Source of the DNA: Datisca glomerata
Lineage: Eukaryota; Streptophyta; Magnoliopsida; Cucurbitales; Datiscaceae
Length of the DNA: 64,000 nucleotides
Assembly (NCBI GenBank): GCA_003255025.1
Contig: QANY01005361.1
Location: forward strand, 709,388-773,387
Direction: 5' to 3'
Below, piece by piece: positions 4,668 to 52,138 of this stretch. The translations under genes were made by a program, and so were the position numbers. The notes under the pieces are model-generated. The model saw only the letters and a list, made by a program, of their open reading frames with translations, did not search any database and was not told the DNA's origin. Position 1 is the stretch's first letter; the number at the start of each line of letters is the position of its first letter.

Positions 4668-5650
4668 ATGCTCACTAAGAATGATGTGAAAACTTTGTCG
4701 AAAGTAAAGAAGTGGTTAGGTGAGAAATTTCAAATGAAAGATTTGGGAGAGACAAGCTATATTCTAGGCATCCAAATCCTAAGGGATATGAATAATAAAC
4801 TCTTGATACTTTCTCAGACATCTTATATTGATAAGGTGCTGGAAAGATTCTCTATGAAAAATTTCAAAAAGGTCAATTACCGACTAAACATGAAATTATC
4901 CTTTCCAAGAAGCAATGTCATAAGACACCTCAAAAGAAAGATGATATGAGAAGGGTTCTTTATGCTTCAGTGGTTGGGAGTCTCATGTATGACATATTGT
5001 GTACGAGACTAGACATCTGTTATGCAGTAAGAATTGTCAGTCGTTATCAATCAAATCCTGATTTTGAACATTGGGTTGCAATAAAGTATATTCTTAAGTA
5101 TCTTTGAAAAACGAGAAATTACATGCTTGTTTATTCAGGAGGAGACTTGAACCCCACTAGATATAATGTTTCTTATTTTCAATCAGATATGGACAGTCAA
5201 AAGTCAATGTCTGGATCAATATTCACCACTAGGTGGAGGAGTTGCAGTCTAGAGAAGTATTAAACAATCCAATATTATAAATTTCACCATGGAAGCTGAA
5301 TATATAGCAATTTGTGAAGCTGCGAAAGAAACGATTTGACTCAAAAAGTTCTATACGGATCAGGAAGTAGTTCCAGACATGGATAAACCATTAATCTTGT
5401 ACTGTGACAACAATGGGGTAGTAGCTAATTCAAAAAAACCAAAGAGTCACAAGAGGGGCAACCACATTAAGAGGAAATACCATCTTGTAAGAGAGATTGT
5501 AAAATGAAGAGACGTGATTGTTATGAAGATAGCGTCAGATTAAAACCTGGCTGATCCTTTTACCAAGACACTTCCTACGAAGTCATTAACGATCATGTGT
5601 GAAATATGGGGTTGAGAGAGAAGCCACATTTGCTTTAGGAAAAATGGGAG
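4668..5650 (+). pseudogene. Ty1/Copia reverse transcriptase C-terminus and RNase H
   Basis: The translation shows the second half of a Copia pol: WLGEKFQMKDLGETSYILGI, then LSQTSYIDKVLERFSMKNF, the RNase H block MEAEYIAICEAAKETI, LYCDNNGVVANSKKPKSHKR and KRKYHLVREIV, and a C-terminus LADPFTKTLPTKSL. These match the family order (RT thumb, then RNase H). There are frameshifts after about 4949 and several stops (TAG, TGA in the RNase H part). Gag, protease, integrase and the RT palm are absent. The region ends in the polypurine stretch AAAATGGGAGAT directly before the LTR, so this is the 3' portion of the element. Confidence 0.9.
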
Positions 5651-5652
5651 AT

Positions 5653-7890
5653 TGTTGGGTATAGTGCCCTCAAAACATATATAAAGACATTTTAATTTGA
5701 ATTATTAAAATATTTTTTTTCTTATAATTGTGTTTTCTGAATTATTATCGAATAATTTGTATTAATATCTGAAAATTTCATATTCATTAATGAGACTATG
5801 ATCTTGTATTAGTACGAGGGGATTAAGATCATATATAATGAATAAAATAGTCCACAACATATTAAAGTATGAAGTCTTTAATGTATGGTTGCTAGTACGA
5901 TTCGCTAAGTATTTTGAATGTATGTGATCTAGATTCGAATTGGTATTGTAGATAGATATCTTAGTGAATGCACTTTATATAATTAGATTATATAGGACAT
6001 GACCGATGTGAATTAATATATTTATTAACTTACCGTTTATCATAAAGATTTAATATACATAAATCAGATGATCATATGTAGATCAATCTAACTCATGAGT
6101 AGTCATGAACACCTATAGATGTCTACTGGATCTTTTGATTCACTCGTTAAGATTTATTCGTAAAATAGGCTAGTAACTTTTATTTTGGAGATTCAGTGAC
6201 ATGGATGGCTGGGAACATGATCTTACAAGATTTAGAATCCAAGCTTTTCTGACGGATCATATATTGGTTCTCTTAAGTGTTAATTTTGGAATTGAATGGT
6301 TATTGAACTCAAATTTATATTACGATTATAAATTAATCATTCACTAGTGAATTAATGGTACTTAAGGATCAAGAGGTAATTAGAAGGATAAAACAATAAT
6401 TTTGACCAACTCTAATTTACGAACTAATAATTAGAGGACATAACTACATGCATTGATTATATCAATGAACTACACGAGACTACTCTATAAATATATTCTG
6501 TAATTACTAAGAGTGCAATTCCATATTTATAGTGGAGTAATAATGAAAACTAATAAATAAGTTTATTTAATTAAATAGTTTAATTAATAATCTGATTTAT
6601 TAGAGCTTAGAATTATGGGTCTATGATCTCCATGCCACCTTTGTATTATACAGTCTAGAATGTGAATATTTCAGGATATAAGAAAATGACTAGCTTGCAA
6701 AAAGAATTCAGTTTCTAAGGCAAATATATAATTATGAGATGATTAAGTGAAATTAATTAATTAAGAATTAATTATTGTAATTTTTAGAAATTATAATTAA
6801 TTAAATATATTGATTAATTTTTAAATTAATCGATAAGTGAAACAATATGCTTGATTTATGACTTTAAATAGTATTAAATTATTATAAGATAATAATTTGA
6901 ATTTGAATGAAGTAATATATTATTTTTGCACTAATAGATAAGTTAGTTGATAGGTGTGATTAGATAAGTTAATTTTGAGTTAACTGATATCTAAATATTT
7001 ATCTAATTAAAATAAATAATAAATTTGATAAAATTACTACGTGACATGTCAGACTGCCACATGTCAATCACTGATTTTTGAATCATGGATTGACTTGACA
7101 CACTGTAGTGTCACATCACACTCTATTGGCACGTGACATACTGTAGTGCCACATGACACTACAGTGATGTGTGTGACTCTGTAGTGCATCACGACACCAT
7201 AGTAGTTCACGACACACCACGGTGCCACACGACACTCCACAGTTCACAGTTCCACACGACACTCCACAGTTCCACATGACACTCCGCAGTGCCACACGTC
7301 ACTGCAGTGTGACGTAGACTGTAATGAGTCTCACTGTAACGGTACATTTGTAAATAATTTATTATTTTATGAAACTCTAAAAAATCTAATGAGCCTTGAC
7401 TTTGAATATATTAATAATGTTCTATTGGCCTCATAGAGCAATTATAGGTGTGATTAATTTGTTAATCAAAACTCTGTGAATTCTCCAATTCTCTCTCAAA
7501 GTTCCGTCTCAAAAGTCAATATCCAAATCTCTAGTTCTCATGTGTTGAGTACATCTAGAAGCGTAAAAATGTTCTTGATTTATTCTACGCACCCACATAA
7601 GTTATAATGTGTTTGAGGATTAGTTTGGAAGATATTTGTATGGATCTCACAGTTCACTTTTTATAGATCTTACGCTCATTATTTTACTAGAAGATACCGA
7701 TGTCGATTGATAGATTTCGAGAGGTATTATTATTTTTATGAATGTCTTTAATTTAATGTATGGATATATAATGGATCCGTTGAGAAAAATTATTTTCAGA
7801 ATTTTTTTTTGAAACTTGTCGCGTTGTGATTATTTTTTCAAATAAATTTTTTAAATAAATCGCCTCCGCTGCACGTCTTGATTTTCAACA
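5653..7890 (+). mobile_element. Copia 3' LTR (about 2.2 kb)
   Basis: Starts TGTTGGGTATAGTGCC right after the polypurine tract and ends TTTTCAACA, giving the expected TG...CA ends with an inverted TGTTG/CAACA. A homologous copy lies in antisense at 57602-59656, which fixes both borders independently. The long LTR and RNase H type suggest an Angela-like Copia lineage, but that is inference. The 5' partner LTR is not in the window, so a target duplication cannot be tested. Confidence 0.88.
7030..7330. repeat. Degenerate GACAC/CACAGT repeats inside LTR
   Basis: Short imperfect repeats built from TGTAGTGCCACATGACAC and CACACGACACTCCACAGT occur here. The related LTR at 57602-59656 has a shorter version (about 58120-58320), so this block has expanded or contracted since the copies separated. 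Confidence 0.65.
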
Positions 7891-9038
7891 CATACAAACT
7901 AAACATACTTAATGGAAAATTAAGTAAATAAATTAGATACTAATAGTAGGTAGTTAATAGTTTTACTGAAATGCGAGTAAATTTGCATATAGCCATACTC
8001 CAAAATTCATTCTTAATCTCGTAACTATTTTATCGGCCTATAGTAAAAGCACTTATAGTAAAATTTATAGAAACTTTTGTCATATTTTTTGGTTTCTAGA
8101 ATTCTGTATTGATTCTGTAGAAACTTCCTATTTATTTTTATGGATTCTTGCCGGAGATTAACTTTCTTTTTGTTCATGATGTTGTGGAGCTTGGATCGAT
8201 AGAGTGTGGAGTCGTGGGTTTTGTGAGTATCACGAGCTGTGTTTTGAAATGAAGAAATGTTTGAGTTGATGATTCGTGTAATTATAATCGAGTCGTCTAC
8301 ATTCTTACTCTATACGCGTGTCAAGGTTCAGGAAGTGCATTTGTTTTATTTTTTTATTTTGTGTTTGTCATTTTTTCTTTCCGTTTAAACACCGCCGTTC
8401 TTTTAATTGTTTTTAAATGGCCCATGTTCTTGGGCCTTTATTACAAGTAATTGTAGGGCGCGTTTCGTGCCCTGTTTCAATTAAGGGTGAAAAATGCCTT
8501 CACCATTTACTATTATTATTAGGTCGCCCAATCATTTATACAATTAAAAAGTTGAGCGATCATTTTATTATTGAATTAAACCTGTAAAAGCGTGCATCAT
8601 TATCGAACAACATAAGATGTAATCGGATGGTTTCATCCATGCATTTATTGATTTCCATAAATTCAATTTTAAGTTTGGAAGTTATGTATCTTCTATCTAG
8701 AAAAAGTTGAACAAATTTGTATCACTATGAATCATGGATGATTCTAATAGACTTTAAAGCGAGATGGAACAATAAGTGAAAATCCATCATTTTATCATTC
8801 AGAATAATATTTTTAAAATAGTTGAACAAAAAAATCAAAATTTAATTTTTTTTTTCATAGAAATTACACGAGCAATTTATTACTGTATAAACAAGCAATA
8901 AGATTTTAACATGAAAAACCACCCAACTACAGGATGCCATGTGTATGATTGTTGGTTTTCTTGGGAATTGTAAGAAAAATGTATCAACAACTTAGTAGAA
9001 AAATGTTCTAAATCTTCTGTTTAATATATTAAAGTTTA
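7891..9038. other. Unclassified spacer
   Basis: AT-rich DNA between the Copia LTR and the foldback unit. No long ORF or recognisable protein motif is visible. A less AT-rich patch around 8160-8480 has no readable domain. Confidence 0.4.
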
Positions 9039-9050
9039 GGAAAACTTTAC

Positions 9051-9074
9051 AATGCCGGACAAATTTCCGGCATT
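9051..9074. other. Terminal hairpin in left arm
   Basis: AATGCCGGA and TCCGGCATT form a perfect 9-bp stem with a 6-base loop, 12 bases inside the proposed end of the unit. The right end has only a decayed counterpart (CTGTCGGG). Confidence 0.6.
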
Positions 9075-9134
9075 GATATTCGGTAATTGTGGTTCTTAGA
9101 TTACTTTTGAAGTAATCTGAACCATACAAAACCC

Positions 9135-9890
9135 AGTAGGTAACAAGTTTTTTATGCGTTCAGTAGATACATACTGAGGTTCATCAATTACATACTGAGA
9201 TTTACCAATTACGTGTGGAGTTCACCAAATACGTACAAAAAAATAATTATTAGAGGAGTTCACCAATGACATACTGGGGTTCACTAATTACGTAATGAGG
9301 TTCACCAAATACGTACAAATTAATAATTCTTGAAGGAATTCACCAAATACATATTGGGGTTCACCAAGTATATACTGAAGTTCACTAATTATATAGTGGG
9401 GTTCACCAAACACGTATAAATTAATAATTCTTGGAGGTGTTCATCAAATATGTATTGGGGTTCACCTATTACGTACTGGGGTTCACTAATTACGTACTGG
9501 GGTTAACCAACCACGTACAAAATAATAATTCTTGGAAGGTTTCACCAAATACGTATTGGGGTTCACCAAATACGTATTGGGGTTCACCAATTATGTAGTG
9601 GAATTCACTAATTACGTACAAAATAATAATTCTTAGTGGGGTTCACCAAATAGGTGCTGGGGTTCATCAATTACGTATTGTGATTCACCAATTACGTATA
9701 AATTAATAATTCTTAGAGGGGTTCACCAAATACGTACTGGAGTTCACCAATTATGTACTAGAGTTCACCAATAACGTAGTGGGGTTCACCAAATACGTAC
9801 AAATTAATAATTCTTAGATATATTCATCAAATACGTACTGGGGTTCACCAATTACGTACTGAGGTTCACCAAATACGTAAAACCTAATCC
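9135..9890 (+). repeat. 21-bp TACGTA tandem repeats, left arm
   Basis: Units of GGTTCACCAATTACGTACTG type recur every 21 bp. They are broken about every 100 bp by a spacer reading AATTAATAATTCTTGGAGG. The right arm has the same units inverted over a tract about 2.6 times longer. Confidence 0.9.
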
Positions 9891-10964
9891 CCATACCTAA
9901 TAGGTGAATCACCTATTTTTAGCCCCTAAACGCCATTCTGAAGGTGCTAATCGCATTGTCAAAGCCAAGCGCTAGTTTTATGACTCAAACCACCTATTTC
10001 ATTCCCCAAACGCCATGTATAAATAGGTGATCGTCAATCTCCCTCCCAATCGTCAATTTTTTGGGCCTAATCGCCATTATTCATAATCAATCTTAAAATT
10101 GATATTTTTATAATTATTTACCGTACACCGAGAAAATTATTGATAAAAATAGAAAAAACTCATTATTTCAATGCAAACATTCATGAGACTCACTTATTAT
10201 GTGAAATTAGATTGGATTAATTAAGGATACTCGAAACAATTGAACACTTAATCATAAACTCGGTAAAAGTTGTCATTTATAATATTACTGTGCTTTTGTG
10301 ACAAGTATCGAGTGAGATGAGTTTTCACCAAATATAATTATATGTCGCGATGTTATGAGGGTCAGTAAATCCTATTCATCAGTTCGACGAACATGTATAA
10401 CCCTTAAGATCAGATTCTACTATTAAATCGAGCCTATCAGCTAAAAAATTTGAAATTAAATATTGAAATTTGAAATTTAACCTTTTATTTAATAATACTA
10501 ACCCCATAATTTTTGGAAAATAACCCTTTATATTTTAATTAATTTATAATCTTATTAATTTTGTACGTGAAATATTTTGGTGAACCCTTCCAAGAATTAT
10601 TAATTTTATACGAGAAATATTCTGGTGAACCCCTCAAGATTTTCTTTGTACCCCACTATGAAATTGGTGAACACCAAAATACAAGTCAATTTTGGTGAAC
10701 TCCTCCAAGAATTATTAACCTTTTCATTTTATAAATTATAACCCCATAAAATTTGAAAAATAACCTATTTACGTTTTAATTTATAATCCCATAAATGTAT
10801 TTTGTTACAAACCGTTAATCTATCCAATTGGATTCTACAAAGAGTAGATTCGCTCCTTATGTTATGGTTCATCTCGCACTTACAAACTTTCAATCTATCC
10901 AAACATTTTGAACTTCTAAATTTATTTTTATTTATCCATCCAGGTTTTTTAGGCATAATGGGGA

Positions 10965-11300
10965 GTATTGAGACTAAACGCTTGTGTGTCTGGTGTTTGG
11001 GGCCCAAACGCGATCAACATGCCCCAAACGCCAGTCATGGTAGGCGATTTTCCATCCATGACTGATGTTTGTGGCCCGCATGACACGTTTGATCCCCTAA
11101 CACTATAGTAACATGCGTTTGGCTCGTGTCCTAATGACACATGCCAAACACCTGTGTGTCTGGCATTTGGGGCCCAAACGCGACCAGCAGGCCCCAAACG
11201 CCAGTCATGGTAGGTGATTCGCCAATCATGATAGGTGATTTGCCAGTCATGACTGGCATTTGGGGCCTGCTGGACACGTTTGAGCCCCAAACGCCATTTT
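10965..11300. repeat. GC-rich palindrome island, left arm
   Basis: Repeated motifs TTTGGGGCCCAAACGC, CCCCAAACGCCAGTCATGG and TAGGCGATT occur on both strands of a roughly 330-bp GC-rich island in otherwise AT-rich DNA. Many motifs are self-complementary, so the strand could form several alternative hairpins. Overlapping frames in all directions are translations of this palindromic repeat and not genes. Confidence 0.75.
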
Positions 11301-11309
11301 CATGTAGTT

Positions 11310-12450
11310 GTTATGAAACACTTAGTCATTTGTACACACTTAGTCACATATATGAACTTAGTCATATTTTTGTACACTTATGCAATTTTCACACTTAATT
11401 ATTTTACATACTTAGTAATTTTTACAAAGTTATTTATTTTCAAACACTTAATTATTTTCACAGATTTAGTGATTTTCACACTTAGTTATTTTTTACACTT
11501 AGTAATTTTCACACATTTAATCACTCGTATTTGCGCACACTTAGTCATTTTCATGTACTTGTCAATTTTCACACACTTCGCATATTTATTTGCACACATT
11601 TAGCTATTTTTAATTACACACCCTTAGCATTATATAATTGTGTCTTACATTTATCATTTTCACACCTGAATATTTTAAATTTACTTAATCATTTTCATTT
11701 ATTCACTTAATATATAGTCTTGTAGAGGTCCTTCCATTTCATCAATTCAGATAAGGTCTTGGTGAAGGTCATATGCACGATTACTCTATGGAGTTACATA
11801 ATGTTTTTTCTTCCAAAATTCTCGATTTCTCAATACAAACATTAACAATTTTCACTTTGAAATTGAATTAAGTACCACTATAAATGAATATTTCTTCTGA
11901 TACAAATCCCTTCTAAATACACTTCAAACCTACTTCTATACATCACTACACAAATATCACCGGAAAAGCAGCATAACAAGATGTAAATCCTGGTACTTTT
12001 TAATGAATACTTTAGTTGCACCATTATACATATTTAGTAATTTTTAGACACTTAACCAATTTAACCATTTTCACATACTTAACCATTTTCACACACTTAG
12101 TTATTTTCAACGCTTAGCTACTTTTTTGCACTTGGTCATTTTCAGAACTTAGTCATTTTCACAAATTTACTAATTTTCACATATTTAACCATTTTTACAC
12201 ACTTAGTCATTTTTAAACACAACAATTTTCACAAACTTGTTTTTGACGCACTTAGCTATTGTCACACATTGACAATTTCATGTATTTGTTTAGATACACT
12301 TAGCTATTTTCTTGCACTTAGTTATATTTTCATACACTTAGCTATTTTCACATACACTTAGCAATATTCATTCACTTAGTAATTTTAACACACTTAATCA
12401 TTTTCATACCATAGCCATTTTTTGCACACACTTAATTAATTCATCAACAC
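11310..12450 (+). repeat. Degenerate TTAGTCATTTTCACACAC repeats, left arm
   Basis: Imperfect units of about 16-22 bp (CACTTAGTCATTTTCACA) fill most of this stretch, with a less repetitive interval around 11700-12000. The inverted counterpart is at 22760-23620. Confidence 0.8.
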
Positions 12451-12725
12451 ATAAAAATTATTAATTAAGATTCTCTTTAGAAAAAAGGATCTCATTCATT
12501 AGTATCATTACATATATCATTACTGAATAATTTTTTATACAAATCCCTTCTAAACACTAAAACACACTTCAAATTACTTGTGTACATAACTACACAAATA
12601 TTTTCATAGAGCACGAACAACCTTGCTACAAATATAAAGTAATTTCAGCTGCATCATTTTTACCCTCAAGATCAAGTTGTAATATATTCTCATCTCTGAT
12701 GTACTCTTCGTAGAGGCCATTCTAT

Positions 12726-13621
12726 CTTTTTAATCTGACCTAAATGGAAAAAGCAATCATGCTATAAGTAAACAAGAAAGAGAACAGATTTATTACTCTC
12801 TGAAGAGAAATAGTTGTTCTCATTTGAAAAAGACTTTCGAAGTAAAGAAAGAAGCAAAAGAACAAAAAATAAGAGCAAAATGAGCTAAAACTTAAAAATT
12901 TTATACTATGAACAATAAAAAATTTGGTTGGCCTACTTCAGTTACTTTTCTACTTCTAGGCTGACAATGGCATTCTTCTTTATAGAAACCCTCTGCTTAG
13001 ATGTATACCAAAAAACTTGAAAGAAACCTTAAATATAATTCATTTAGTGCATGACACAAAATGTAAAACTTGCTACCCTTGCCCTCCAAGCCATTGATTA
13101 CAAGAAAAATTTGTTATCCATAACATATCCCAACGACCACTAGATTTCAAAATAATCCATTCAAAATAAATCTTTCCTTGCCAGTTTGCCACTCTTCTAG
13201 TAATTAAAAATAGTCATCAAACTCACCTTCCTTGGTCATCACCAAGCCTCAAGGATGATAAATAGAATAGTCATGAAACGAATAACAAAAAATGTAAAGT
13301 CATGTTACAACAACAAACAACCCAACCTTAGTTATATAGGCATAAAAACAATATAGCTCCTTCCCAGAAATTCCAAGAACATTTTTTGGCACTACCCAAT
13401 CAAATCACCTAACTTTAGAAATTTTTTGATTTAAAAATGAAAATTTAGAGGGAAAGTTTGCTCCTACCGGCTATATTTTGAGGAAATTTTGGATAAATAA
13501 TTATTTTATTTAAAGAAACAGTTTAGCAAAATAACAATAAACACTTATTTCTGAAATTTACCAGCAACTAAACAACCTTTCATCATATAATCAAAGAAAT
13601 TTCTAAAACAACAGCATTTAC
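12726..13621. other. Interior of foldback unit, left part
   Basis: Non-repetitive sequence between the left arm and the CACTA insertion. It includes moderately balanced stretches (12960-13260) that could be decayed exon or UTR, but I cannot read a protein family from them. Confidence 0.35.
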
Positions 13622-14685
13622 AATCACGACTACAAATTTGGGTTTAAATGACATTAGGGTATTAGCTTTTATGACATGTCTCTTAAATCTCACATCTAAA
13701 AAAGGCTCTGGAGTGTAAAAAAAATTGATTTTCGCTAACATGACAAGTTTTACTTAACCTGTCATAATAAGTTCACCTATTATGTTTCACCTATTATGAC
13801 GGTGAAAAACTAAGCTGTCATAACCAAGAATGCACAATAATAATCTATGACAGTGATTGTTATCACTGTCATTGTACTAAAAATATTCAATAATTATAAA
13901 CTTACCACGTTATATGCTAACTCTAATTCCTTATCTTTCCGTTTTCACTTTTTTAGATTTAGGAATAGAGAGAGGCGACCAAGTCAGAGAACCTAGGGTT
14001 ATTCTCTTGCTTCTCTTCCTCTCTCTCTCTCTCTATGTTTTGACTCGATGAAGAGAAGCAAATGCATAAGAAGTTCAATCGGTCGGGTTCTTCCCCTCGG
14101 GCCTAGTCAGCTTATTTATCTAGTTCTATTCTTGCTATGGCTTCTCACTTGCTTTGCCATGTTCCTCTTATTCTCCTTCTTCTTTTAGTTGAAGAAGGAA
14201 GAAATTCCCACTTCGGAGAACCTCTTGGTAGCTCTAATTTTCATAGTGAAGACTTCTTAACATTGTTTTTTATGAGTCTGTGATACTTATTGACCAAGTT
14301 ATCTGTGTATTTTAGTAAATTACTCATTTTTCTAAATTTCAGTTAATTTTATTACTCTTGTAGATTTTATCTCCATCTTACATTCTCTCTAAATTTCGTT
14401 GTAGTCCATCTTTCCTACTGATTTTTAGATACTTTGGTATGATAATTTGTGTAGTAGTCTTTAGAGAAATTGTAGATATCTATTTCTAGTTTAGCATTCT
14501 TGCAGTACTGGCTAGTAACTAGTCTGGTGACTTAATTTTTTTGATTTGCTTCCAGTTGATTATTAAAATGTTCTGACCTACATGCAAAAAGATAATGTTC
14601 AAATTTGTTGAGCTTTACTTACACCCCTAAATATAGTCTACTTTTTTTTTAATTTTAGTTTTGATATTCACTTTACTTTTTTAAG

Positions 14686-15440
14686 GCAAACCTTTGGCTT
14701 TTGTGTTTCCTATTTTGGAGTCACTAACAAATGGGCCTGCAAAAGAAATAAAGAAAACTAGATATGGAAGGACTCCTCGTGTCTTGGTACTTTTACCGAC
14801 TAGGTAGTTGACCAAACATGTATGGAATTAATAGATTCAGTTAAACTTTGTTCTTGGGTGTTCCTTATTAGGATTTCTTATGGTTCAATTCAATCAGGTA
14901 CATGCTTACTTCGAAGTTTATAGTGGGTTATTGGGATTGGTATCGTGCTCGTTATATGGAGGAGCACCTTACCAACCCTAAAAAACTAAAGTAAAAAGAT
15001 GGGTTGATATAGTTATTAGAACTCCATACCGCATTAAGGTATACTTGTGAATACTTGCTCTGTAACATTTTTGTTAACTTTATGTTATATGTGGATAGCA
15101 TGACAGTTAACATCTTTGGAAATTTGATGTAGGATCACATTGAGAGGGGTAACATAGACCTGAGATGTTTAAAATTCAGGGTCCTTGATGAAGTTGATGA
15201 AATGTTGGGGATGGGTCTTTTTCCTGCAGTATGTGCATGTGTTTTTGAAAACCTGTTAATTTTTCAGCTTCTATTTATTATTCTGAATATGAGCTGCCAA
15301 TTTACCTTCGCTTGGTGTTAATGTTCACCATATTCTTTCAATCAATTTTTTGGTGACATTATTTGTTTTCTTTATCTGTAGAAAAGTTGAAGATACAAAT
15401 AAAGTCCAGACTCTTCTCAAATTCACTCTCACTCTCTCTC
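14686..15440 (+). pseudogene. Captured DEAD-box RNA helicase 7-like gene fragment
   Basis: Four exon-like blocks with matching GT-AG borders read as the helicase core of a plant nucleolar DEAD-box helicase (RH7-like, involved in rRNA processing). 14686-14819: KPLAFVFPILESLTNGPAKE then TPRVLVLLPTR. 14898-15038: VHAYFEVYSGLLGL, LYGGAPYQP and VKRWVDIVIRTPYRIK. 15133-15228: DHIERGNIDLRCLKFRVLDE then VDEMLGMGLFPA. From 15382: KVEDTNKVQTLL. Motif Ia (PTRELA) is PTR-stop, there is a further stop after YQP, and the DEAD box reads DEVD. Motif I Gly-Lys lies at the 5' edge, and everything upstream and after motif II/III is missing. It cannot be a working helicase. Introns are retained, so capture was at DNA level. 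Confidence 0.85.
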
Positions 15441-15804
15441 TCAAATTTTTGGGGTTGAGAAATTTAGGGAGCATTTATGAATTTCTTTTCCTGAATCAAC
15501 TATGATGTTTCTCTGTTGCAAAGTATTTTACTTTTCTGGATTCATTTGTGGATTTCTTTTTTTTTTGAATCAACCATGCCTCCATGACAGAGTCTCATCA
15601 TAACCCCGCTGACAGTGAGTTTCTCCTTTTAGGGTTTCCATCTATTTGAGATTAATGACTTCAGTTGAGTATAACACATAAATGATATATTGGTAGGTTG
15701 GTTGTATTGTAATTTGTGACTGTTTTTCTTCATATTTTTATATACTCTTTCATTGATGTAGTTATGAACTTATTATTATCTTTTTCATATCATAATATTG
15801 TTGA

Positions 15805-16410
15805 GGTTGCTGATACTGATGTTGGATTCAGCCCAACATCTTCTAAAGTAAGTAATGCTAATGGTTATGCAGTTGAATGTGTACAACCTCATTTCCTCAT
15901 TTTCTCTACGTGCTAATGTCTTTCTTATCATCATTATATGAATGTCTTTCATTTAGAAAATGAATGTGACAAATCTTTCAATTTAAATCCTAAGACATGT
16001 AAATATATGTAGAAGTATAGACTCTACAAGGTTAAGTGAGAAATGAATTATATTTAGAAATTTAGAGAAAAGCCTGAGAATTAAACCTAGCATCTTATGG
16101 ACAAGTTCATTGTTTACTTTTATTTTTTGATGACTACTTTTGACAGACAGATCTAGCCCATCATAGTCCGTTTACCATTGCTGTGAAGAACTTTGGCAAG
16201 AAACCTCTTGAGAAATAACAAGGTTAATTTCTTGTTTAGCTGTTAATATGTGGCTTTGGTCTAAAATGGTTATGTTTATTGCCATATCATGTTTTATTTT
16301 AGAAGCTCTCTCTGATTCATATGGGTCTGATTTAACGGTTGGGAGTGAAATTTCTTTAGCTGGAAAAATAGATTTTTCAGATGCATGATTGTTATGATGA
16401 AGAAAATGAC
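15805..16410 (+). pseudogene. Further exon-like fragments inside CACTA, family unknown
   Basis: Three short coding-looking blocks separated by intron-like AT-rich DNA: around 15805-15880 (VADTDVGFSPTSSKV), 16144-16215 (TDLAHHSPFTIAVKNFGKKP, ending at a stop) and 16303-16385 (EALSDSYGSDLTVGSEISLA). They share one strand and appear to be consecutive exons of one gene, different from the helicase. I do not recognise the family. Base composition is less AT-rich than the flanks, consistent with capture of a host gene. Confidence 0.45.
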
Positions 16411-16789
16411 TTTGGTGAAGATAAACTTGTGCTCTTAGTCAACCTTGCCAATAAAAAAGCAGTCGGGATTTCATCTGATGGTATGTAAGACAAACCTTGC
16501 TTCATCAAAATGCAACAAATAGAACTCGTTTTTGGTTTTCTAAGTTTTTGCTTACTTTGAGAATTCTGAATCAATTTAGTTGAATTCTAATTATAGCATG
16601 TCGCTATAATGTTGGCTACTTTATTATCAGTTTCTAGCTAATTCAACATTTACTTCCTTACTTCGTCTATTATCTAATTTAATTCTTTAAGTTGAGTTTG
16701 TGGTTGTGGAGAAGGTGGTGTTGAGGATTAAAATTAAATGATATTAATGAATAACTGTCATGGGAAGACATGTTTTTGCTTTCCATGCA

Positions 16790-17073
16790 GTTTTTTTTAA
16801 AAATGACCCTATAATGATGGGGATTCCGCGTCATTATAGGTGTTTTTACAGCACCTATAATGACGGACAATCCCTGTCATTAAAAGTATTTTTACGGCAA
16901 GTTTAATGAAGGGGATTCCCCGTCATCAAAAGTGTTTTGGAGGCACCTTTTGATGACGATTTTTAGTAAAATGAGTTTAAATGACAACCCGATAGATGAC
17001 AGTCATGTCCCCATCATTAAAGGGGTTTGATGACATGTTTTCACCATCATCTGAGCCTCATTTTATAGCAGTG
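16790..17073 (-). repeat. CACTA right-end subterminal repeats
   Basis: Clustered inverted and direct copies of TATAATGACGG/CCGTCATTA and TTTTGATGACG motifs run up to the terminal TATAGCAGTG. In this superfamily such subterminal motifs bind transposase; here that role is inferred from position only. Confidence 0.75.
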
Positions 17074-17076
17074 AAT

Positions 17077-18353
17077 GAATGCAATCATTTTCAAAATCTA
17101 AAAATGATAAGATTGCAAAAACATGTTCCCTTTGTTTTAATTTGCATGTAGCTTAACTTGCCTCATGCTCATATAACTATAACTAAGTGACATAAGTTAT
17201 GATGAAGTCGTCTTAATAGACAATGATGATGGTAGGCAATAAGTTTGTGTTCCAATGCACAAATGCAACATATGGGGACTAGGTTAAAGGAGATTTTAAA
17301 CTTCATAACATTGTTTCTAATAAATTTGAAAGTATTTCTATATAATTCTATCTCAAAATGCAAGATGAGTACTATCCTAATGATAATTTTAAAAAAAAAT
17401 AGATATATGATATCCAGACTCATTAACTTATCTCAATTACACAACTAAAGACATACATGCAACATATTAACAGAGAAGAATAAACAATTCATCAATCCCA
17501 ATTACTGAACTAAAACAACCCCAGCTCTAAACTAAAATGAAAACAGATAATAGTGGTTTCAATCTCAAGAAAATGAAAACAATTAGATTCCTGTGAAAAC
17601 AAATCTTGTGCAAACCAAATCACCGACATGGATGATGGTAGGCGACTAGGGTCAATCACTATCATCCTAGTGGTAATTAACTCTTAAACGCCACCTGCAG
17701 GCTCCAAATGTCAAGTGGTGTCTATGATCCTCAGTGGACTAGTGGCAATAACAGACACCTCATGGCGACTGGATCATTTGTATGGTGATTCGCCACCAAA
17801 TTCTTCCCTCATACACGCATATATAACCCAAAACCCAGTCTTTTTTGTATAATGCATACAAAACTCAAGAAAAATCCAGATTCATGCTAAGAAAAAACTC
17901 AGTTTTGGTTCTTATTCAGGTTCAACAACACATAGTAACTTAAAAATGACAAAAACATATCAATTAGAGAAACAAAAGAAAACTCTAACATGAATTTATA
18001 AAAAAAAAAACTCAAATTTGACAACCTAAAATCATACCTTTGATTTTGAAGTAATGATATAAGAAAGGAAATGAGTGATTCATAGACGATAATGAGAAAC
18101 AAAATCCACGGGATTTGTAGCAACAATCCTTAATGTTGAAAATTTTCTTGAGAATGTAGGAGAAGAAGAAGTGGGTGTGGGTTTGGGTTGATGGGAGGTT
18201 TGAGGTTTTTGAATGTTCTTTGTCTTTTTTTGGTGGGTGACCGGCTAAGAAAGTCACAGGCTTACAATTCATCCAACAGTCTAGATCTTTCTCAAAGATA
18301 TAGTGGACTATATATAGCTCAGCATCAATGTTGGGAGGAAAACTCCCATATTT
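17077..18353. other. Interior of foldback unit, middle part
   Basis: Sequence between the CACTA and hAT insertions. Around 17630-17800 there are motifs (GTAGGCGACT, AAACGCCACC) like those in the palindrome islands of the arms, which supports this being part of the same unit. No protein domain is readable. Confidence 0.35.
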
Positions 18354-18361
18354 GAGTTTGA

Positions 18362-19971
18362 TAGGGGTATTCACGGTTCGGTTTGGTCGGTTATTTGGAC
18401 AAAAATCAAACCGAACCAAAACTTTCAGTTCGGCTATGTACTGAACCGAACCGTGAAGGTCAAAAGAATCAAACTAAACCTAACCGTGAGTTTCGGTTCA
18501 GTTCGGTTCGGTTCGTCAGTTCGACATTAATAGTGTAAAAAATAATCCACGAAAATTATAACATCAAACTTGCAAACTTTACATGTCTTAAAACTAATAT
18601 TTCAACATCAAAATTAGGATAAAGACATTTTAGAATCTGTACAAGAAAAAAGTTAAAACTAAAGGTTGTGAAGAACTCGTACAAGCACATCAATTTCCTA
18701 GAAAAATCAACACAAATTGAACTAAAAATTTGTTATTACAAACCCTAAATAAGAAATAATCAAACTTAAATCTATTACAAATCCTAGATAGGTAAAAATT
18801 AAACTTAAACTCTATATAACTAAACCCTAAACTAAATCAAGAAAAACACTTATAATCTGTAATGCAGAATTGGCCGGTGAAATACAGTACAAAATGCAAG
18901 AAAATAATTCTAATAGTAAGGCAAACCATTGCTTTTATCACTAAACAAATTCTCCAAAATACAACACATACTTACATAATCAAAATTAACTACAGACCCT
19001 GATTTAAAACATTAGGGTTTCAAAATACAAAAATTGATGAAATTAGAGGCCTAGGTTAAAATTCTCCAAAATACAAACCTTAGATAACATGTTTAACACT
19101 CATACCCGAGTAGATATGCCTAGATTTGCTCAAATATAAGTGGATCTGAGTAGATTTGAGTAGATCTACTTAGATCTAAGACTGAGACTGAGCATATCTA
19201 AGGATTTCCAGTAGCCAACATGTTTGCTCAACCCTCTCGAGAAGAACTAAGGATGCCCTTGATGAATGAAGTCATCCTCTTCATGCCACCATTCGAGAAA
19301 ATCTGATCGTACGAAGAGAAGAGCTTGGGAAGGAGAGAGAGTTCGAAGAGAAGAGAGAGGGAAGGAGAGAGAGATCGAAGAGAAGAGATTGGGAAGGAGA
19401 GAGAGTTCGAAGAGAAGAGAGAGGGAAGGAGAGAGATATCGAAGAGAAGAGATTGGGAAGAAGAGAGAGTTCAAAGAGAAGAGAGAGGGAATGAGAGAGA
19501 GATCGAAGAGAAGAGATTGGGAAGGAGAGAGAGTTCGAAGAGAAGAGAGAGGGAATGAGAGAGAGATCGAAGAGAAGAGATTGGGAAGGAGAGAGAGTTC
19601 GAAGAGGGGAGGCATTACGTGTAATTGTAGAGAGACAGAAAGCTACGAACAGGAGAAAGGAGGGGAGAGCTCTTCGTACAGGAGAGGGGAGGAGAGAGAG
19701 GTTTGAAGAGGAAAGGGAGACATTTAGAAATGAGAAGAGCTGGGATTTTAGGGTTTGTAAAAATAGGTTTAGTATTATATATANTATATATAGATAATTT
19801 AGTTTATTTTATTTAGACTTCAGTTCGGCTCCGTTCGATTCTAAATCACATATTTTTTAACCGAACCGAACTTACGGTTCGGCAGATATATCGAACTGAG
19901 TCGAGATAACCTAAATAATCGACCGAACCGACCATTTTTGGTTCGGTTCGGTACCTATTTTTTCACCCCTA
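18362..19971. mobile_element. Non-autonomous hAT-like element
   Basis: The left end reads TAGGGGTATTCACGGTTCGG and the right end in reverse complement TAGGGGTGAAAAAATAGG, followed by several GGTTCGGTTCGG motifs on both sides. Flanks are GAGTTTGA (18354-18361) and GAGTTTAA (19972-19979), an 8-bp duplication with one mismatch, as expected for hAT. TAGGGGTG ends with GGTTCGGTTCGG subterminal repeats are common in plant hAT-type elements. No transposase is visible. The interior contains a GA-rich tandem array and one ambiguous base (n at 19784). Confidence 0.85.
19320..19615. repeat. GA-rich tandem repeats of about 60 bp inside hAT element
   Basis: Roughly five units alternating GAGAGAGGGAAGGAGAGAGA and GAAGAGAAGAGATTGGGAAG. 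They keep frames open on both strands (Arg/Glu-rich on plus, Leu/Ser-rich on minus) because of composition. I do not regard either as a gene. Confidence 0.85.
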
Positions 19972-19979
19972 GAGTTTAA

Positions 19980-22467
19980 TCCTAAAGTTTATAATAAATT
20001 CTATTTTTCTCTCTCTTCTCCCAAGAAAGCTTCCTATTTTTAGAAAACTTTTCCTTAAAGCTTTCCATTGCCTAGTGTTTTCTTTGAAAACTACTAAATC
20101 GGTATCATCAATCATGTATTTTAGTTACATTTCTTCCCTCTAAGTTTTAAATACTTGGCTATTTGATATTTGGCAATGGGGGTCAATCTCCCATGCCAGA
20201 AATGTTTTCCCGACATTCATGTCGGGATTAATCCTGACCGTTGGATCTAGCTAGATTAATCCCAGTCTGAAATTCTTTAAAGAGTGGGTTATTGATTAAT
20301 TAGGTAGCCGACTCCCATTTCACATTTTCTTTGTCTTTACCATTCAAACCCTAGGCAAAAATCAACCCCTCATTTGTGTCTCTCTCTTCGTCGTCCCCAC
20401 GGTTGTCATCTTCCTCGACAAATCATCCAAAGCTCAAATTCGAACTCACCGCCTCATTCGTGCTCTCTCTCTCTCCCTCCCCCAATGATGAATCCCAGGT
20501 GAAGCTCGAGATTCTGCCGCGTCCATCAAATCACGTCCTTTTATGACTTGTAGGAGATTCTAGTTGCATCCTTGAAAAATCTTAGAAGCTTCCCCTTCTT
20601 CTTCGACTTCAACCCAAAAGCTAGGCCATGCTATCACTCTCTCTATTGCGTACCATCGTATTCCACGTGAAGCTCCCCACGGAAACAGGTGAGCTCAACC
20701 CTAAGGTCATGATTTAGTTGTAGATATGGAATTTTATGTGATTTTACTTAAATCCTTTCTATGATTTCTAATTATTTTTTCTAATTCATGAAGCAAAGTT
20801 GGAATTTTCTGAGTATGTTGTATCTGAGATTTTGATGTTGACCTATGATTTTTGGATCTTTTGGCAATGTTGTTGTTCAGAAACATCTTAACCGCTGAAA
20901 CAAGTCAACTGTGGAAAAACATTGAGGTAATTTCTTTCTCTTCTTATGCTTTGTTTTTATCTATTTTCAAGAAACATGTTTTATTTTGGATTTTTTTATC
21001 CTCTCTCATATATCTATTATGCTATCTCATGCCAAATGAGTAAAATTTTACTGTTAAGAAGATGATTTGGTTGGTTTTAAGCTTAAGAAGGATAAGAAAA
21101 GCTTGATGAAGTGAGTTCGGTCTTGAAGGCACACATGGATTTTTGCTGAAGGATTTTGTGATTAAGGTAAGATTTGTAGTTTATTGTATAATATTAGCTT
21201 CTTTCACATATCAAATCCATTTTTCATAGTAAACAAATCTCAATGGTGTTGTACCTTTGAGGTTACCCGATTAAGTTGGAAGATAAATGAAGAGACTCTT
21301 GGATTGAACTAAATGTTGCTGAATTTTCAATTCGCTTATTTACTTTCGGATGCTCATTGATCGTCCATATCTGATAGCAACCGAGGGAATAGCTCCTAAG
21401 ATTTTTTTGTTTTGTCTTTCCTAGGATGTCTATATTTATTATTTTGCATCTTTCATTGCTGTTGTAATCTTAGATTCTAAAACTAGACATTAATATCGAC
21501 TACTTTGGTATTTAGGATTATTTAAAGGGCTTTCCATGTAAGTCATTGCTAGTTTTTCTTATGTACATAATCATCGGTTGATTTCTGATTCTTAGGGTTG
21601 CTGAAGGGGTCGAGGAATCTTGTTTTTCGGACAGTAAATGGGCCTCCCTATGAATGTCAATGGGTGCAGATATGTTATGGACATTTATGCACTAGTTTTA
21701 TTTTCTTAACCAAAGTGTATAAATAAGTATGTGATGGTTCCTCACCCTTTTTGTTGGTTTTGTTAAGTACTTTAAATGGATGTTACAGAGTTCCTTGGTC
21801 CATTTCAAGGGTCGTCGGGGGGATTTCTATATTTAGATAGCTTCGATTTGAATTTTTCACGAGGATACATTTAATATATCTTGATTCTTTTCAAAGGATT
21901 TTAACTGCAATCTAGGTCATGGACATGCTAGGACCAAGTCTTTGGGACATTTGGAATACAATTGTCCAGTCATAAGAAAAACAATGTTTCTCTTTTCATG
22001 GATGGTAACTCTTTATTAGCATCTTTAGTGAGTGTAGAAAATCTTTGATTTTTGTATAGATTTGAGGCGCTTAATTGTTGGCCAGTATTTGCAATTTTTT
22101 TCTCATTTTTATGTAAGAGGTATATTACTTGCATATGTATATGCTTAAAGTTCAAAATTGGCTTTAGTAGCTTTCATTTTGTAGGATACCCTTCATTCTC
22201 TCAGTAAAGCTACCCCCATTTAAATTGGTTTAGGTAATTGACAAGCCTATAGACTTGGGAACAATAAAAAATAAATCGTACTTGTGATTTCAACTATTAT
22301 GTGTCGTAGAACATGGTTGAAATGCAGGTTTCTAATGAAAATGCCAAACCAAATGACCAACCTTTAGAGACAAATTTGATGTGGATCATTTCGTTACCAA
22401 TGGCCAACCTTTGGAGATATGCATATTCCTAAAACCATCATTTTTTTAAATTATACTAAACTAAAGA
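19980..22467. other. Interior of foldback unit with gene-like composition
   Basis: From about 20330 the composition changes to that of a plant 5' UTR and first exon (CTCTCTCTTCGTCGTCCCC, AACCCTA motifs), with a plausible splice donor after GGAAACAG near 20690. Later there are alternating intron-like AT-rich and exon-like patches (21600-21960). I cannot name a protein, apart from the short block at 22234. A perfect 8-bp inverted repeat CCCGACAT/ATGTCGGG with 2-base spacer lies at 20209-20226. The stretch looks like captured or relic host gene sequence. Confidence 0.4.
22234..22287 (+). pseudogene. Bromodomain-like exon scrap
   Basis: After a TTTAG acceptor, 18 codons read VIDKPIDLGTIKNKSYL and then stop. 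The pattern VI-x-x-P-(M/I)-D-L-G-T-(I/V)-K-x-K matches the conserved ZA-loop segment of bromodomains (acetyl-lysine readers). The canonical PMDLGT is PIDLGT here. The match is only about 15 residues and no other part of the fold is seen nearby, so the call is tentative. It would be another captured gene piece within the foldback unit. Confidence 0.4.
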
Positions 22468-22759
22468 AATGGAAGAACCTCTACGAAGAGTAGAGTATAA
22501 ATTGGATATGAGAGACACATTGCAACTTGGAATAAAATGATGCAGCTGAAGCAATTATTAAAAATTCTTCATTATTGTATTTGTCTTATATCCAGAAAGT
22601 AAGTTAGAAGTGTGTTTGTAGAGTTTAAAATAGAAGGAATTTGTAACGAAAAAAGAATATACATATGTGGTGATACCAATGAATGATATACTTTTTAATG
22701 GAAAATCAGAATTTTTTTATTTACTTAGTAACGAGTTATTATTTTATAAAGATTTGCTA

Positions 22760-23620
22760 TGAGATTAGTATGTGAAATGATTAGGTATTTAAAAACGGTT
22801 AGAAGTGTGAACATGACTAAGTATGTGAAGTCTTTGAAGAGAGCTTGAAGAAATAAGACCTCTACGAAGAGTACATATTAGAGATGAGGCAAACATTAAG
22901 AATAACTAAGTACATTAAACTAGCTAGGTGCGTGAAAATGATTAAATGTGTGAAAATGGTTTAGTGTGTGAAAATAAAAATGGTTAAAGGTGTGAAAATT
23001 GCTAAGTATGTGAAAATGGGGAAGTCTATGAAAATGGTTAAATGTATTAAAATAAATAAGTGTATGAAAATTATAAAAGTATGTGAAAATGACTAAGTGT
23101 ATGAAAAATGGTTACGGGCATGAAAATAACAAAGTATGTGAAAATAATTAAGTGTGTGAAAATAACGACAGTACCTATGTGAAAACATCTAAATGCGTGA
23201 AAAATGGCTAAGAGTATGTCAAAATGCCTAAGTCCATGAAAATATGACTAAACGACAAAACAAGAGCATGAAAATGACAAAGGGTGAGAAAATGACTCAG
23301 TGAATGAAAATTGCTAAGTGTATGTGGTTAACTTGTAAAAATGACTAAGTATATGTGAAAATGCCTAAGTGTATGAAAATATGATTAAGTGATAAAACTG
23401 ACAAAGGGTGAGAAAATTACTAAGTGAATGAAAATTACTTAGTGCATGTGACTAAGTTATAAAAATGGCTAAGTGTATGTGAAAACGCCTAAGTGTATGG
23501 AAATAAGGCTAAGTGTATAAAAAATGTTAAGTTGTGAAAAAAGTTAAGTTATGAAAATGATGAAGTTGTGATAATGATCAAGGTTAATTTGTAAAAATGA
23601 CTAAGTGTGTGAAAAAGATA
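22760..23620 (-). repeat. AAAATGACTAAGTGTGTG repeats, right arm
   Basis: Degenerate 16-22-bp units, the reverse complement of those at 11310-12450 (AAAATGACTAAGTGTATGTG and variants). Confidence 0.8.
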
Positions 23621-23769
23621 AATGCAAGGCATAATTATGAGAGGGAGAGAGAGATATAGAATTTATAAGTATATGAAAAGGAATAATTGTGTGAAATTAA
23701 TATGTATGCCTAAGTGCATGAGAATAAATACGTGTATCAAAATAAATAGGGACAAACTCCACAATGGGG

Positions 23770-24095
23770 ACCTAAACGCCATCACCATGTGTTTTTCCGA
23801 GTCGCCATCCAAGACTGGCTTTTGGGGCTTGCTGGTCGCGTTTGGGCCCCAACCGCACACACATGCGCTTTGGCCCGTGGCACTGGGACACTAGCCAAAC
23901 GCATGTTACTATGGCGTTTGGGGCTCAAACGTGTCCAACGGGCCCCAAATGCCAGTCTTGGCTGGCGATTGGAATCGCCTACCATGACTGACGAGACACA
24001 CATGCGTTTGGCCTGTGTCACCAAGACACGAGCCAAACGCCTGTTACTATAGCATTTGGGCCTCAAACGCCAGGCACAGAGGCGTTTGGTCCCAA
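23770..24095. repeat. GC-rich palindrome island, right arm
   Basis: Inverted counterpart of 10965-11300 with the same ATGGCGTTTGGGGCTCAAAC, GGCCCCAAATGCCAGTC and TTGGCCTGTGTCACC motifs. Frames on both strands are shadows of the repeat. Confidence 0.75.
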
Positions 24096-24954
24096 AACTC
24101 TCTATTGGATCATGGCATACGCAGGTCAAATCCTGGAAGACGTAACCTTTAACTGTTTTAAGCACTTTCAGAGGTCCAAAAGTTGTTTTGGTCTTAATTT
24201 TGAGCTTTTTTGTAATTTCTATCTCTTTTAATTTTTAGAATTTTTTAGAACGGTATAAATTCATCTTATTCAATTATTTTAAACAGTTTTGATATTTTTA
24301 TGAGAAAATCGTCCTCCTTTTTTTCATTCAATTTCAAACTTTTAGTGGATATGTTCGATTTAAAGATAGAATCCGATCTTGAAGGTTATACGTGTTCGTC
24401 AAACCGATAAATAGTATTTATCGATCACCATAAAACATCACGACATATACTTATATATATGATGAAAACCCATCTCGCTTTATACTTGTCACAAAAATAT
24501 AACAACATTATTAATGACAACTTTTAATGAGTTATGAATAAATGTTCAATTGTATCGAGAATCCTTAATTAATCCAATCTAATTTCACATAATAAGTAAA
24601 TATCATGAATGTTTGCATTGAAATAATATGTTTTTTCTATTTTTATCAATGATTTTCCTGATGTACAGTAAATAATTATAAAAATATCAATTGTACGGTT
24701 GATTGCGAAGAATGAACGGTTGATTATGAAAAATGACGATTAAAGCCATATATATGGCGATTAGGCCCAAAAAGCTGGCGATTGGGAGGGAGTCTGGCGA
24801 TCGCCTATTTAGACATGGCTTTTAGGGAATGAACAGGCGATTAGAGGCATAAAACTAGCGCTTGGCTTTAAAGATGCGATTAGCACCTTCAAGATGACGT
24901 TTAAGGATTAAAAATAGGCGATTCACATATTAAGTATTGCGATTAGATTTTACG

Positions 24955-26935
24955 TAATTAGTTAACCCCACTACGTAATTGATGAGCACCAGTACATATT
25001 TGGTGAACTTCTCCAAGAATTATTAATTTGTACGTATTTGATGAACTCCACTACGTAATTGGTGAATTCCACTACGTAATTGGTGAACCCATTACGTAAT
25101 TGATGAATCTCACTACGTAACTGGTGAACCCCACTACGTATTTGGTGCATCCTTCCAAAAATTATTATTTTGTATGTATTTGATGAACCTCACTACGTAA
25201 TTGGTGAACCCCACTACGTAATTGGTGAACCCCACTACGTAATTGGTGAACCCCTCTACGTATTTGGTGAACCCCTCTACGTATTTGGTGAACCCCTCCA
25301 AAAATTATTATTTTATACATATTTGGTGAACCCCACTACGTAATTGATGAACCCCTCCAAGAATTAATATTTTGTACGTATTTGGTGAATCCCACTACGT
25401 GTTTGGTGAAACCCTCCAAGAATTATTATTTTATATGTATTTGATGAATCCCACTACGTAATTGGTGAACCTCACTACGTAATTGGTGAACCCCATTACA
25501 TATTTGGTGAACTCCTCTAAGAATTATTATTTTGCACTTATTTTGTTGACTTCATTACGTAATTGGTGAATCTCGCTACATATTTGGTGAACCACTCTAA
25601 GAATTATTATTTTGTATAAATTTGGTGAACCTCACTACGTAATTGGTGAACCCCACTACGTAATTGACGAACCCAACTATGTATTACACTTTAAGAATTA
25701 TTATTTTGTACGTATTTTGTGAACCCCACTACGTAATTGGTGAATCCCACTACGTAATTGGTGAACCCACTACGTAATTGATGAATCTCACTATGTAAAT
25801 GGTGAACCTCACTACGTATTTGGTGTATCCTTCCAAGAATTATTATTTTGTACGTATTTGATGAACCTCACTACGTAATTGGTGAACCCCACTACGTAAT
25901 TGGTGAACCCATCTACGTATTTGGTGAACCCCTCCAAAAATTATTATTTTGTACATATTTGGTAAACCCCACTACATAATTGATGAACCCATCCAAGAAT
26001 TATTATTTTGTACGTATTTGGTGAATCCCACTACGTGTTTGCTGAAACCCTCCAAGAATTATTATTTTATATGTATTTGATGAACACCACTACATAATTG
26101 GTGAACCTCACTACGTAATTGGTGAACCCCACTACATACTTGGTGAACCCCTCTAAAAATTATTATTTTGCACGTATTTTGTTGATCTCATTACGTAATT
26201 GGTGAACCTCGCTATGTATTTGGTGAACCACTCTAAGAATTATTATTTTGTACGTATTTGATGAACCTCACTACGTAATTGGTGAACCCCACTACTTAAT
26301 TGGTGAACCCCACTATGTATTACACTTTAAGAATTATTATTTTGTACGTATTTTGTGAACTCCACTACGTATTTGGTGAACCCCACTACATAATTGGTGA
26401 ACCCCACTACGTAATTGGTGAACTCCACTACGTCTTTTATGAACCCATCCAAAAATTATTAATTTATACGTATTTGGTGAATCTCACTACGTATTAGGTG
26501 AACCACTACATATTTGATGAACTCCTCCAAGAATTATTATTTTTTACGTATTTAGTGAACTTCACCACGTAATTGGTGAATCCCACTACGTATTGGGTGA
26601 ACCCCACTACGTATTTGGTGAACCCCTCCAAGAATGATTATTTTGTACATATTTGGTGAATCCTACTATGTAATTGGTGAATCCCACTACGTATTAGGTA
26701 AACCCCATTACATATTTGGTAAACCCCATTACGTATTTGGTGAACCCTACTATGTAATTGGTGAATCCCACTACGTATAAGGTAAGCCCCATTACGTATT
26801 TGATGAACCCCTCCAAGAATGATTATTTTGTACATAATTGGTGAATCCCTCCAAGAATGATTATTTTGTATGTAATTGGTGAACCTCACTACGTAATTGA
26901 TGAACTCCACTATATACATGGTGAACCCTATTGTG
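24955..26935 (-). repeat. 21-bp TACGTA tandem repeats, right arm
   Basis: About 2 kb of GGTGAACCCCACTACGTAATT units (21 bp) with spacers AAGAATTATTATTTTGTACG about every 80-120 bp. Blocks of several hundred bp are themselves duplicated: compare 25120-25450 with 25800-26080, which share CTACGTATTTGGTG and ATCCTTCCAA in the same order. This shows secondary segmental amplification within the array. Confidence 0.9.
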
Positions 26936-27101
26936 TATTTAATAAGAAAAAAACTTATTAACTGTTAAATTTTATGTGACTTAGATTATTTCAAAAATAA
27001 TTGGAGAGTCTAAATGACAAAGGATCAATGTTAAAAAATTATTCCCGACAGAATAAAATTTTCCTAGACAATCGTGACATGCAAGTTACTTTGGAGAGTT
27101 A

Positions 27102-52131: not shown

Positions 52132-52138
52132 CTACTGA

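Follow-up and report, generated by a model that had tools for sequence, protein, structure and literature searches.

The nearest described elements that we found for a transposon family of Datisca glomerata, two copies of which very probably lie in the 64,000-nucleotide stretch of DNA analysed here (the window), are Jitvine-1 (11.9 kb) and Jitvine-2 (14.4 kb), large grapevine Mutator-like elements (MULEs) related to Jittery, for which the available excerpts list no length of terminal inverted repeats (TIRs) or target-site duplications (TSDs) (PMC2528002). According to the same excerpts, the TSDs of grapevine MULEs, where found, are always 9 nt long, some Jittery-like grapevine families have a ULP sequence downstream of the transposase, and ULP-carrying Jittery-like MULEs occur in melon (PMC2528002, citing van Leeuwen 2007). 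In the VANDAL/KI-MULE elements of Arabidopsis, as far as the excerpted accounts go, TIRs are degenerate or absent, family-specific arrays of tandem motifs occupy noncoding regions, and KI-MULEs carry a ULP1 gene opposite to the transposase (PMC5735166, PMC10398659, PMC13317346, PMC2528002); VANC proteins bind short motifs in noncoding tandem repeats and remove silencing (PMC5735166, PMC10398659). Two elements of the foldback type are relevant as well: FARE of Arabidopsis, whose transposase has a MULE domain, and Tm1 of root-knot nematodes, described in the available part of the source as flanked by 9-bp repeats and as having arms built from short repeats whose number varies (PMC3169594).

The window corresponds to positions 709388-773387 of contig C523 of the assembly, and the genome searched comprises 678 Mb in 1358 contigs; its gene content, for example a PPR gene and FAR1 domains, points to a plant. 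It contains one series of sequence blocks twice, in mirrored order, at 9039-12760 and 22597-27064. Read from the outside inwards, the series consists of a terminus, a 21-bp array, a unique segment, a palindromic island, an 18-bp array and an inner end, and the main match between the two arms shows 76.9% identity over 1380 bp. The first-pass annotation had described five or more ordered blocks mirrored on both sides, outer borders at 9039 and 27064, and arms more structured than ordinary MULE ends; all of this is borne out, the arms being ordered arrays of several kilobases and the outer borders being exact, with the same border recurring in ten termini at other loci. Its further step, in which 9039-27064 became a single unit with a 10-kb interior, was not confirmed, a 3' end and a flanking duplication having been located separately for the left and the right arm. 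Our findings point to two independent, tail-to-tail insertions of one old, high-copy family of the Mutator superfamily with very unequal ends, a reading to which we assign a probability of about 0.9. The two elements lie on opposite strands, 0.2 kb apart (Table 1), and the mirror symmetry is most likely the chance orientation of two one-armed elements.

The evidence for a second, short end comes from related loci. Three arm-bearing loci elsewhere in the genome (C202, C725 and C813) have a common collinear interior, and in C725 a short palindrome-bearing sequence ending in GACCC is followed by CCACTATAT, with CCACTGTAT preceding the 5' border (read by eye). A scan with the ends of C725 and of the right element of the window detected the same end in C877, C1326, C196 and C461. 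A first profile model was made of these six 3' ends, its own members scoring 103-141 bits by construction, and a second one was built without the window rows. C1 and C879, two loci outside the model, match the 3'-end model with E values of 3.3e-22 and 3.2e-29, respectively. Both belong to a fresh set of four arms, completed by C179 and C243, that were chosen solely for an intact terminus and unique segment; the 3' end is present in two of these four, none was found in C179 and C243 within 7.4 kb each, and a second inward arm was seen in none of the four within the 7.5 kb read.

The 3' end measures about 100-150 bp and contains a palindrome related to the 5' one. With seven siblings outside the window, nine complete elements of 3.9-15.1 kb are available, in which the arrays are confined to the 5' end (per element, the 21-bp unit occurs 23-73 times in forward and 0-2 times in reverse orientation). 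Their 9-bp duplications agree at a mean of 7.8 positions, compared with 2.6 at shifted null positions, and duplications of at least 7/9 occur in seven of the nine elements as opposed to 0.54% of the shifted null positions; the end base of C877, C1 and the right element of the window was set with the duplication in view, which favours the TSD match slightly. In addition, the 3'-end model matches the opposite-strand 5' termini of loci outside the model (C179, 1.4e-7; C202, 1.6e-6; C1275, 4.7e-6; C243, 6.9e-5), and the first 65 bases align with the reversed last 65 bases at 34-46 identities over 59-63 columns in the nine elements (raw values, without a shuffled control). The family thereby possesses TIRs, of a short kind only.

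Within the window, the C725 end used as a query scores 50 at 20180 for the right element, the next place on the same strand reaching 27, and the profile model built without the window gives 68.5 bits. For the left element, single-end queries from C1326, C196 and C461 score 53-57 against shuffled maxima of 31-46 (three of the six queries), the window-free model gives 13.7 bits (E 2.3e-5, two sequences being searched), and the six-end model matches weakly at 18239-18347 (11.3 bits). This left 3' end is cut by a nested hAT-like insert, after which stand TCC and then TAAAGTTTA, identical to the 9 bp that precede 9039.

At the opposite end of the elements, ten aligned termini from nine other loci show an abrupt border at GGAAAACTTTA, beyond which the flanks are unrelated. 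Eleven bases inside the border lies a palindrome, CAATGCCGGGAA...TTCCCGGCATTG, of which paired variants such as CCGTG/CACGG and CCGAG/CTCGG occur; the 5' terminus as a whole measures roughly 50 bp, with the arm of arrays behind it. Folded as single sequences with RNA parameters, 12 of 17 5' termini reach z < -2 (mean -2.9), compared with two of eight 3' termini (mean -1.8); alignment-based consensus folding of the termini yielded almost nothing. The terminus pattern, with at most two mismatches allowed, has 116 + 120 matches against 5 + 2 for the control. A 601-base query from the left arm gave 145 matches from the best 40 of 2186 first-look candidates, and unique-segment queries from either arm gave 2052 and 2072 candidates, 40 being scored for each. 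A degenerate 20-base marker placed in the unique segment, which matches 16 of the 18 segments used for its design, has 296 + 312 = 608 exact matches genome-wide and 0 + 0 for its reversed control, so that the recurrence of the arm is not due to chance.

The first-pass proposal of a mobile, multicopy MULE-type family with common termini is supported. The check that it had suggested, namely copies with common termini and 8-11-bp duplications, likewise came out positive, except that the copies in question are one-armed elements with a short second end. It had also suggested that the family might be new to science: a text search of the literature, made without sequence comparison to a transposon library, returned no description, and this part of its reading survives unproven.

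As regards coding content, C813 contains successive open pieces that match the FAR1 (5.4e-15), MULE (PF10551; 6.4e-26) and SWIM (0.0012) profiles, and C202 contains two MULE (PF10551) pieces (1.2e-6 and 9e-10) behind the same 5' arm; in both loci the transposase pieces read away from the arm. C725 has other parts of the common interior, without the stretch that holds the MULE pieces of C202, and bears a Peptidase_C48 (ULP1-like) piece on the minus strand (6.2e-4; 20.1 bits compared with a cut-off of 20.7). Because of the 9-bp duplications and the MULE transposase pieces in relatives, the family is, by these sequence marks, a member of the Mutator superfamily. It probably falls within the Jittery-like branch of MULEs, given the combination of FAR1, MULE and SWIM, which we take to be the mark of the Jittery/FAR1-like clade. 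A further MULE-domain piece of C202 (1.6e-20; 6174-6566 of the fetched piece), about 14 kb inward of the arm border and in the opposite orientation, was not counted in the element and possibly belongs to another MULE family. An interior common to C196 and C724 was judged by eye, from its open frames, to be nested copia-type retroelement sequence and was not used.

The mirrored block order and the clean outer borders, together with a second inward two-armed arrangement at C512, would suit one 18-kb unit (9039-27064), either a giant foldback element or a MULE with long TIRs, that moved with an arm at each end; a foldback or giant MULE was also among the possibilities raised in the first-pass annotation. 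We regard this as very unlikely and rejected it on the missing outer TSD and the separate 3' ends: no duplication common to the outer flanks of 9039-27064 was seen when these were compared by eye, and each arm has a 3' end and a flanking duplication inside the segment (9/9 at left, 6/9 at right). The orientation of arms elsewhere bears on the same question. Among the 100 marker matches listed, whose pairing was read by eye in contig order (contigs to about C300 taken as complete, with C523 outside), no two arms faced inward at a distance of up to 30 kb, and a limit of 50 kb admitted one such pair (C19, 39 kb). With a marker sensitivity of 6/11, obtained from 11 similarity-found arms on those contigs, universal pairing of arms within 30 kb should give about 27 pairs among the 100, and arms are therefore mostly single. 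Across the genome, chance would produce between 2 and 6.6 inward pairs with the spacing seen in the window, so that one pair like this is unremarkable in a genome of such size. The arm cluster of C512 (288501-308500), the only other mirror arrangement among the fetched loci, includes two inward-facing arms at a distance of 9.0 kb, whose termini belong to different subtypes and whose flanks are unrelated.

The arms being homologous and inverted, an inverted segmental duplication, or an assembly artefact, of a single arm might also be considered, and the former had been entertained in the first-pass annotation. This is scarcely credible, as the divergence from arm to arm equals that of unrelated copies: the unique segments of the two arms are just 83% identical to each other, no closer than to most arms elsewhere (81-88% for the left segment, except for 74% to one partial C512 copy), and each arm has its own flanks, its own 3' end and its own flanking duplication. 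A tree computed from 18 unique segments, with one locus represented twice, places most arms at the tips of long branches of about 0.09. That the arm by itself constitutes the element, as a solo repeat about 3.7 kb long beside an interior of ordinary host DNA, is extremely unlikely; it would agree with arms that are mostly single and with interiors that differ among many copies, but is opposed by the conserved 3' end, which in nine elements stands at a distance of 3.9-15.1 kb from the 5' border and is accompanied by matching 9-bp duplications, and by the common transposase- or ULP1-bearing interior of three loci. For the window itself, the notion that plain host DNA lies between the arms was rejected in view of the left 3' end with its 9/9 TSD.

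Several observations weigh against two independent insertions of a family with unequal ends. The 3' end was found in 9 of 17 arm-bearing loci, a count in which the two elements of the window figure separately and the arms of C512 once, and which leaves out five arms contained in 3.5-kb pieces (L003, L004, L005, L007 and L008). No 3' end was found in C202 (28 kb), in C1116, C1275 and C724 (about 18 kb each) or in C512, including the interval between its inward arms; C512 may represent either a rare two-armed derivative or a pair of damaged elements. In C813 the match is only partial (E 0.056) and was not counted as an end. The left 3' end of the window is weak and interrupted: the C877 query stays at background, the C725 and window right-end queries miss it, and the profile match reaches no further than 18347, short of the insert, so that the final bases of the element were read by eye. 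Since TAAAGTTTA is AT-rich, with one exact match and four single-mismatch ones in a scan of 15 kb, the 9/9 agreement alone could be luck; the duplication gains its weight because copy 2 stands right behind the interrupted 3' end. The right duplication reaches 6/9 only, and after a one-base shift, the unshifted value being 3/9. Moreover, the MULE domain was seen in no single complete element, C202 and C813 being without a full 3' end; the SWIM and C48 matches fall just below the Pfam cut-offs and the DEAD-box matches of the left interior (0.016 and 0.047) well below; and no unbroken transposase frame was seen, all frames being broken and none mended.

When set beside the described systems, the family resembles Jitvine in its large size, grapevine MULEs in its 9-bp TSDs and, with the ULP1-like piece of C725, perhaps some Jittery-like grapevine families; it differs from Jitvine in its one-sided array arm of several kilobases and its palindromic termini, neither of which figures in the available part of the Jitvine description (PMC2528002). 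VANDAL provides the best functional analogy for the arrays. In common with VANDAL/KI-MULE, there are tandem arrays, and the ULP1-like piece on the other strand of C725, just below the cut-off, may be a counterpart of the ULP1 gene of KI-MULEs; unlike VANDAL, the transposase pieces include FAR1 and a short palindrome-bearing TIR is kept, and binding of VANC to motifs is known in VANDAL, whereas the arrays described here are known from sequence alone. FARE, as a foldback element, has arms at both ends, whereas here the arm is found at the 5' end only. Tm1 is similar in its short-repeat arms and 9-bp flanking duplications, but its arms stand on both ends, its host is a nematode, its repeat units are others and its transposase is Phantom-like. 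The foldback class of the FARE/Tm1 type does not accommodate the family. The left element is comparable to Pack-MULEs in what looks like a host gene fragment between ends with a 9-bp duplication, and differs from them by its one giant arm; Pack-MULEs are usually much shorter than this element.

We propose that transposase from fuller copies would recognise the palindrome-bearing ends and that both window elements were most likely moved by cut-and-paste through a FAR1-type MULE transposase. Non-autonomous copies would carry assorted interiors, and the arrays might bind an element-encoded or host factor. A bolder idea, which we consider doubtful, is that the arm acts as a landing platform: its 21-bp (TTCACCAAWTACGTA) and 18-bp (CACTTAGTCATTTT) arrays would be putative sites for a ULP1-like protein, encoded in reverse orientation by fuller copies, by analogy with VANC/KIU, silencing marks would be stripped, and non-autonomous copies, whatever their interior, would be mobilised. 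The ratio of observed to expected CpG is 0.87 in the arrays, compared with 0.33 for the left interior and 0.59 for the window, a difference that is partly automatic since the unit contains CpG, and counts in 18 arms show that the unit variants differ from arm to arm (chi-square 57, 17 d.f., p = 3e-6). The retention of CpG and the differences in variants are weak hints that fit turning-over, landing-platform arrays. If the idea is true, a MULE of the FAR1/Jittery type would possess an anti-silencing system that is sequence-specific.

Two independent one-armed transposons can, on the reading preferred here, give rise to mirror symmetry in raw sequence, and without the target-duplication test a giant foldback element would be annotated here in error. 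The family would also offer a natural experiment in end asymmetry, with several kilobases of arrays at one end and about 0.1 kb at the other, both ends being used in transposition. Such a one-sided block is unusual and raises the question of anti-silencing arrays, as in VANDAL elements.

Table 1. Features of the two probable elements in the window and size and flanking duplication of the complete siblings (positions are those of the window; TSD values are identical positions out of nine)
Feature	Position	Strand	Remarks
Left element (asymmetric MULE with left-hand 5' arm)	9039-19982	+	complete element, 10,944 bp with the nested 1.6-kb hAT-like insert included; common 5' border, 3' end; TSD 9/9
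Left TSD, copy 1	9030-9038	.	TAAAGTTTA, identical to copy 2
5' terminus, left	9039-9086	+	GGAAAACTTTA, palindrome at 9050-9075, then GATATTCGG; fold z = -5.2
21-bp array, left arm	9168-9879	+	GTTCACCAAWTACGTA...
Unique (non-tandem) segment, left arm	9885-10480	+	
Palindromic island, left arm	10930-11310	+	
18-bp arrays, left arm	11318-12440	+	CACTTAGTCATTTT-type, two blocks
Inner end, left arm	12440-12760	+	CTTCGTAGAGG
Part of putative captured host gene segment	14450-15950	+	DEAD-box pieces; collinear copies elsewhere, 89-90%
Left 3' end, first part	18241-18361	+	cut by hAT-like insert; last 3 bp at 19980-19982
Nested hAT-like insert, 1610 bp	18362-19971	.	TAGGGGT...ACCCCTA; 8-bp TSD GAGTTTGA/GAGTTTAA, 7/8
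Left TSD, copy 2	19983-19991	.	TAAAGTTTA, identical to copy 1
Probable right TSD, copy 1	20170-20178	.	TTGGCAATG; 6/9 to TAGACAATC
Right element (asymmetric MULE with right-hand 5' arm)	20180-27064	-	complete element, 6.9 kb; TSD 6/9; inner-end base 20179 or 20180
Short 3' end, right	20180-20329	-	palindrome-bearing, array-free
Inner end, right arm	22597-22888	-	
18-bp array, right arm	22896-23748	-	
Palindromic island, right arm	23798-24070	-	
Unique segment, right arm	24326-24945	-	
21-bp array, right arm	25031-26943	-	
5' terminus, right	27017-27064	-	palindrome decayed
Probable right TSD, copy 2	27065-27073	.	TAGACAATC
Complete element C877			3,876 bp; TSD 9/9
Complete element C1326			6,535 bp; TSD 9/9
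Complete element C196			5,297 bp; TSD 7/9
Complete element C461			5,533 bp; TSD 7/9
Complete element C725			15,126 bp; TSD 8/9
Complete element C1			7,005 bp; TSD 9/9
Complete element C879			6,290 bp; TSD 6/9

The left element looks like the carrier of a Pack-MULE-style capture of a DEAD-box helicase gene fragment. Two of ten open pieces of the left interior that were compared match the DEAD-box helicase profile at collinear positions, one at 14685-14804 (profile positions 26-55, E 0.016) and the other from 15133 (match at about 15139-15255, profile positions 109-145, E 0.047). A search with the 1.5-kb DEAD-box segment, in which the best 40 of 48 candidates were scored, gave 44 matches, with full-query copies of 89-90% identity at C1222, C363 and C892 and partial copies elsewhere. 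C1222 and C363 were considered as sibling Pack-MULE copies and set aside, as neither arm nor 3' end was found in the 2.5-kb and 0.8-kb pieces at the predicted places, from which an indel could shift the ends outside. Being without arm and 3' end, they are more likely, to judge from these comparisons, to be host gene copies, which would make the window copy a capture.

Elsewhere in the left interior, the pieces 13859-14197 and 16739-17073 resemble (69-83%), in the same order, DNA immediately beyond the C1326 element on its 3' side; a common host segment or dispersed repeats may account for this resemblance. The hAT-like insert contains a 32/64-bp polypurine tandem array at 19312-19606, and the longest open frame of at least 80 aa in 9000-27100, of 175 aa and low complexity, lies inside this insert. 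At C179, a unit of about 0.9 kb that includes part of the unique arm segment is present in about three tandem copies near the arm (4860-6941 of the fetched piece).

The window holds further repeats. A second inverted pair, of another repeat family, is formed by 5653-7875 and 57618-59656 (80.6% over 1.5 kb and 71% over 0.6 kb) and spans most of the window. In addition, a direct pair, 46609-47299 and 52136-52839 (77.6% identical), stands around a 43/86-bp tandem array at 49284-50780 and is possibly a long terminal repeat-like or satellite-bearing element.

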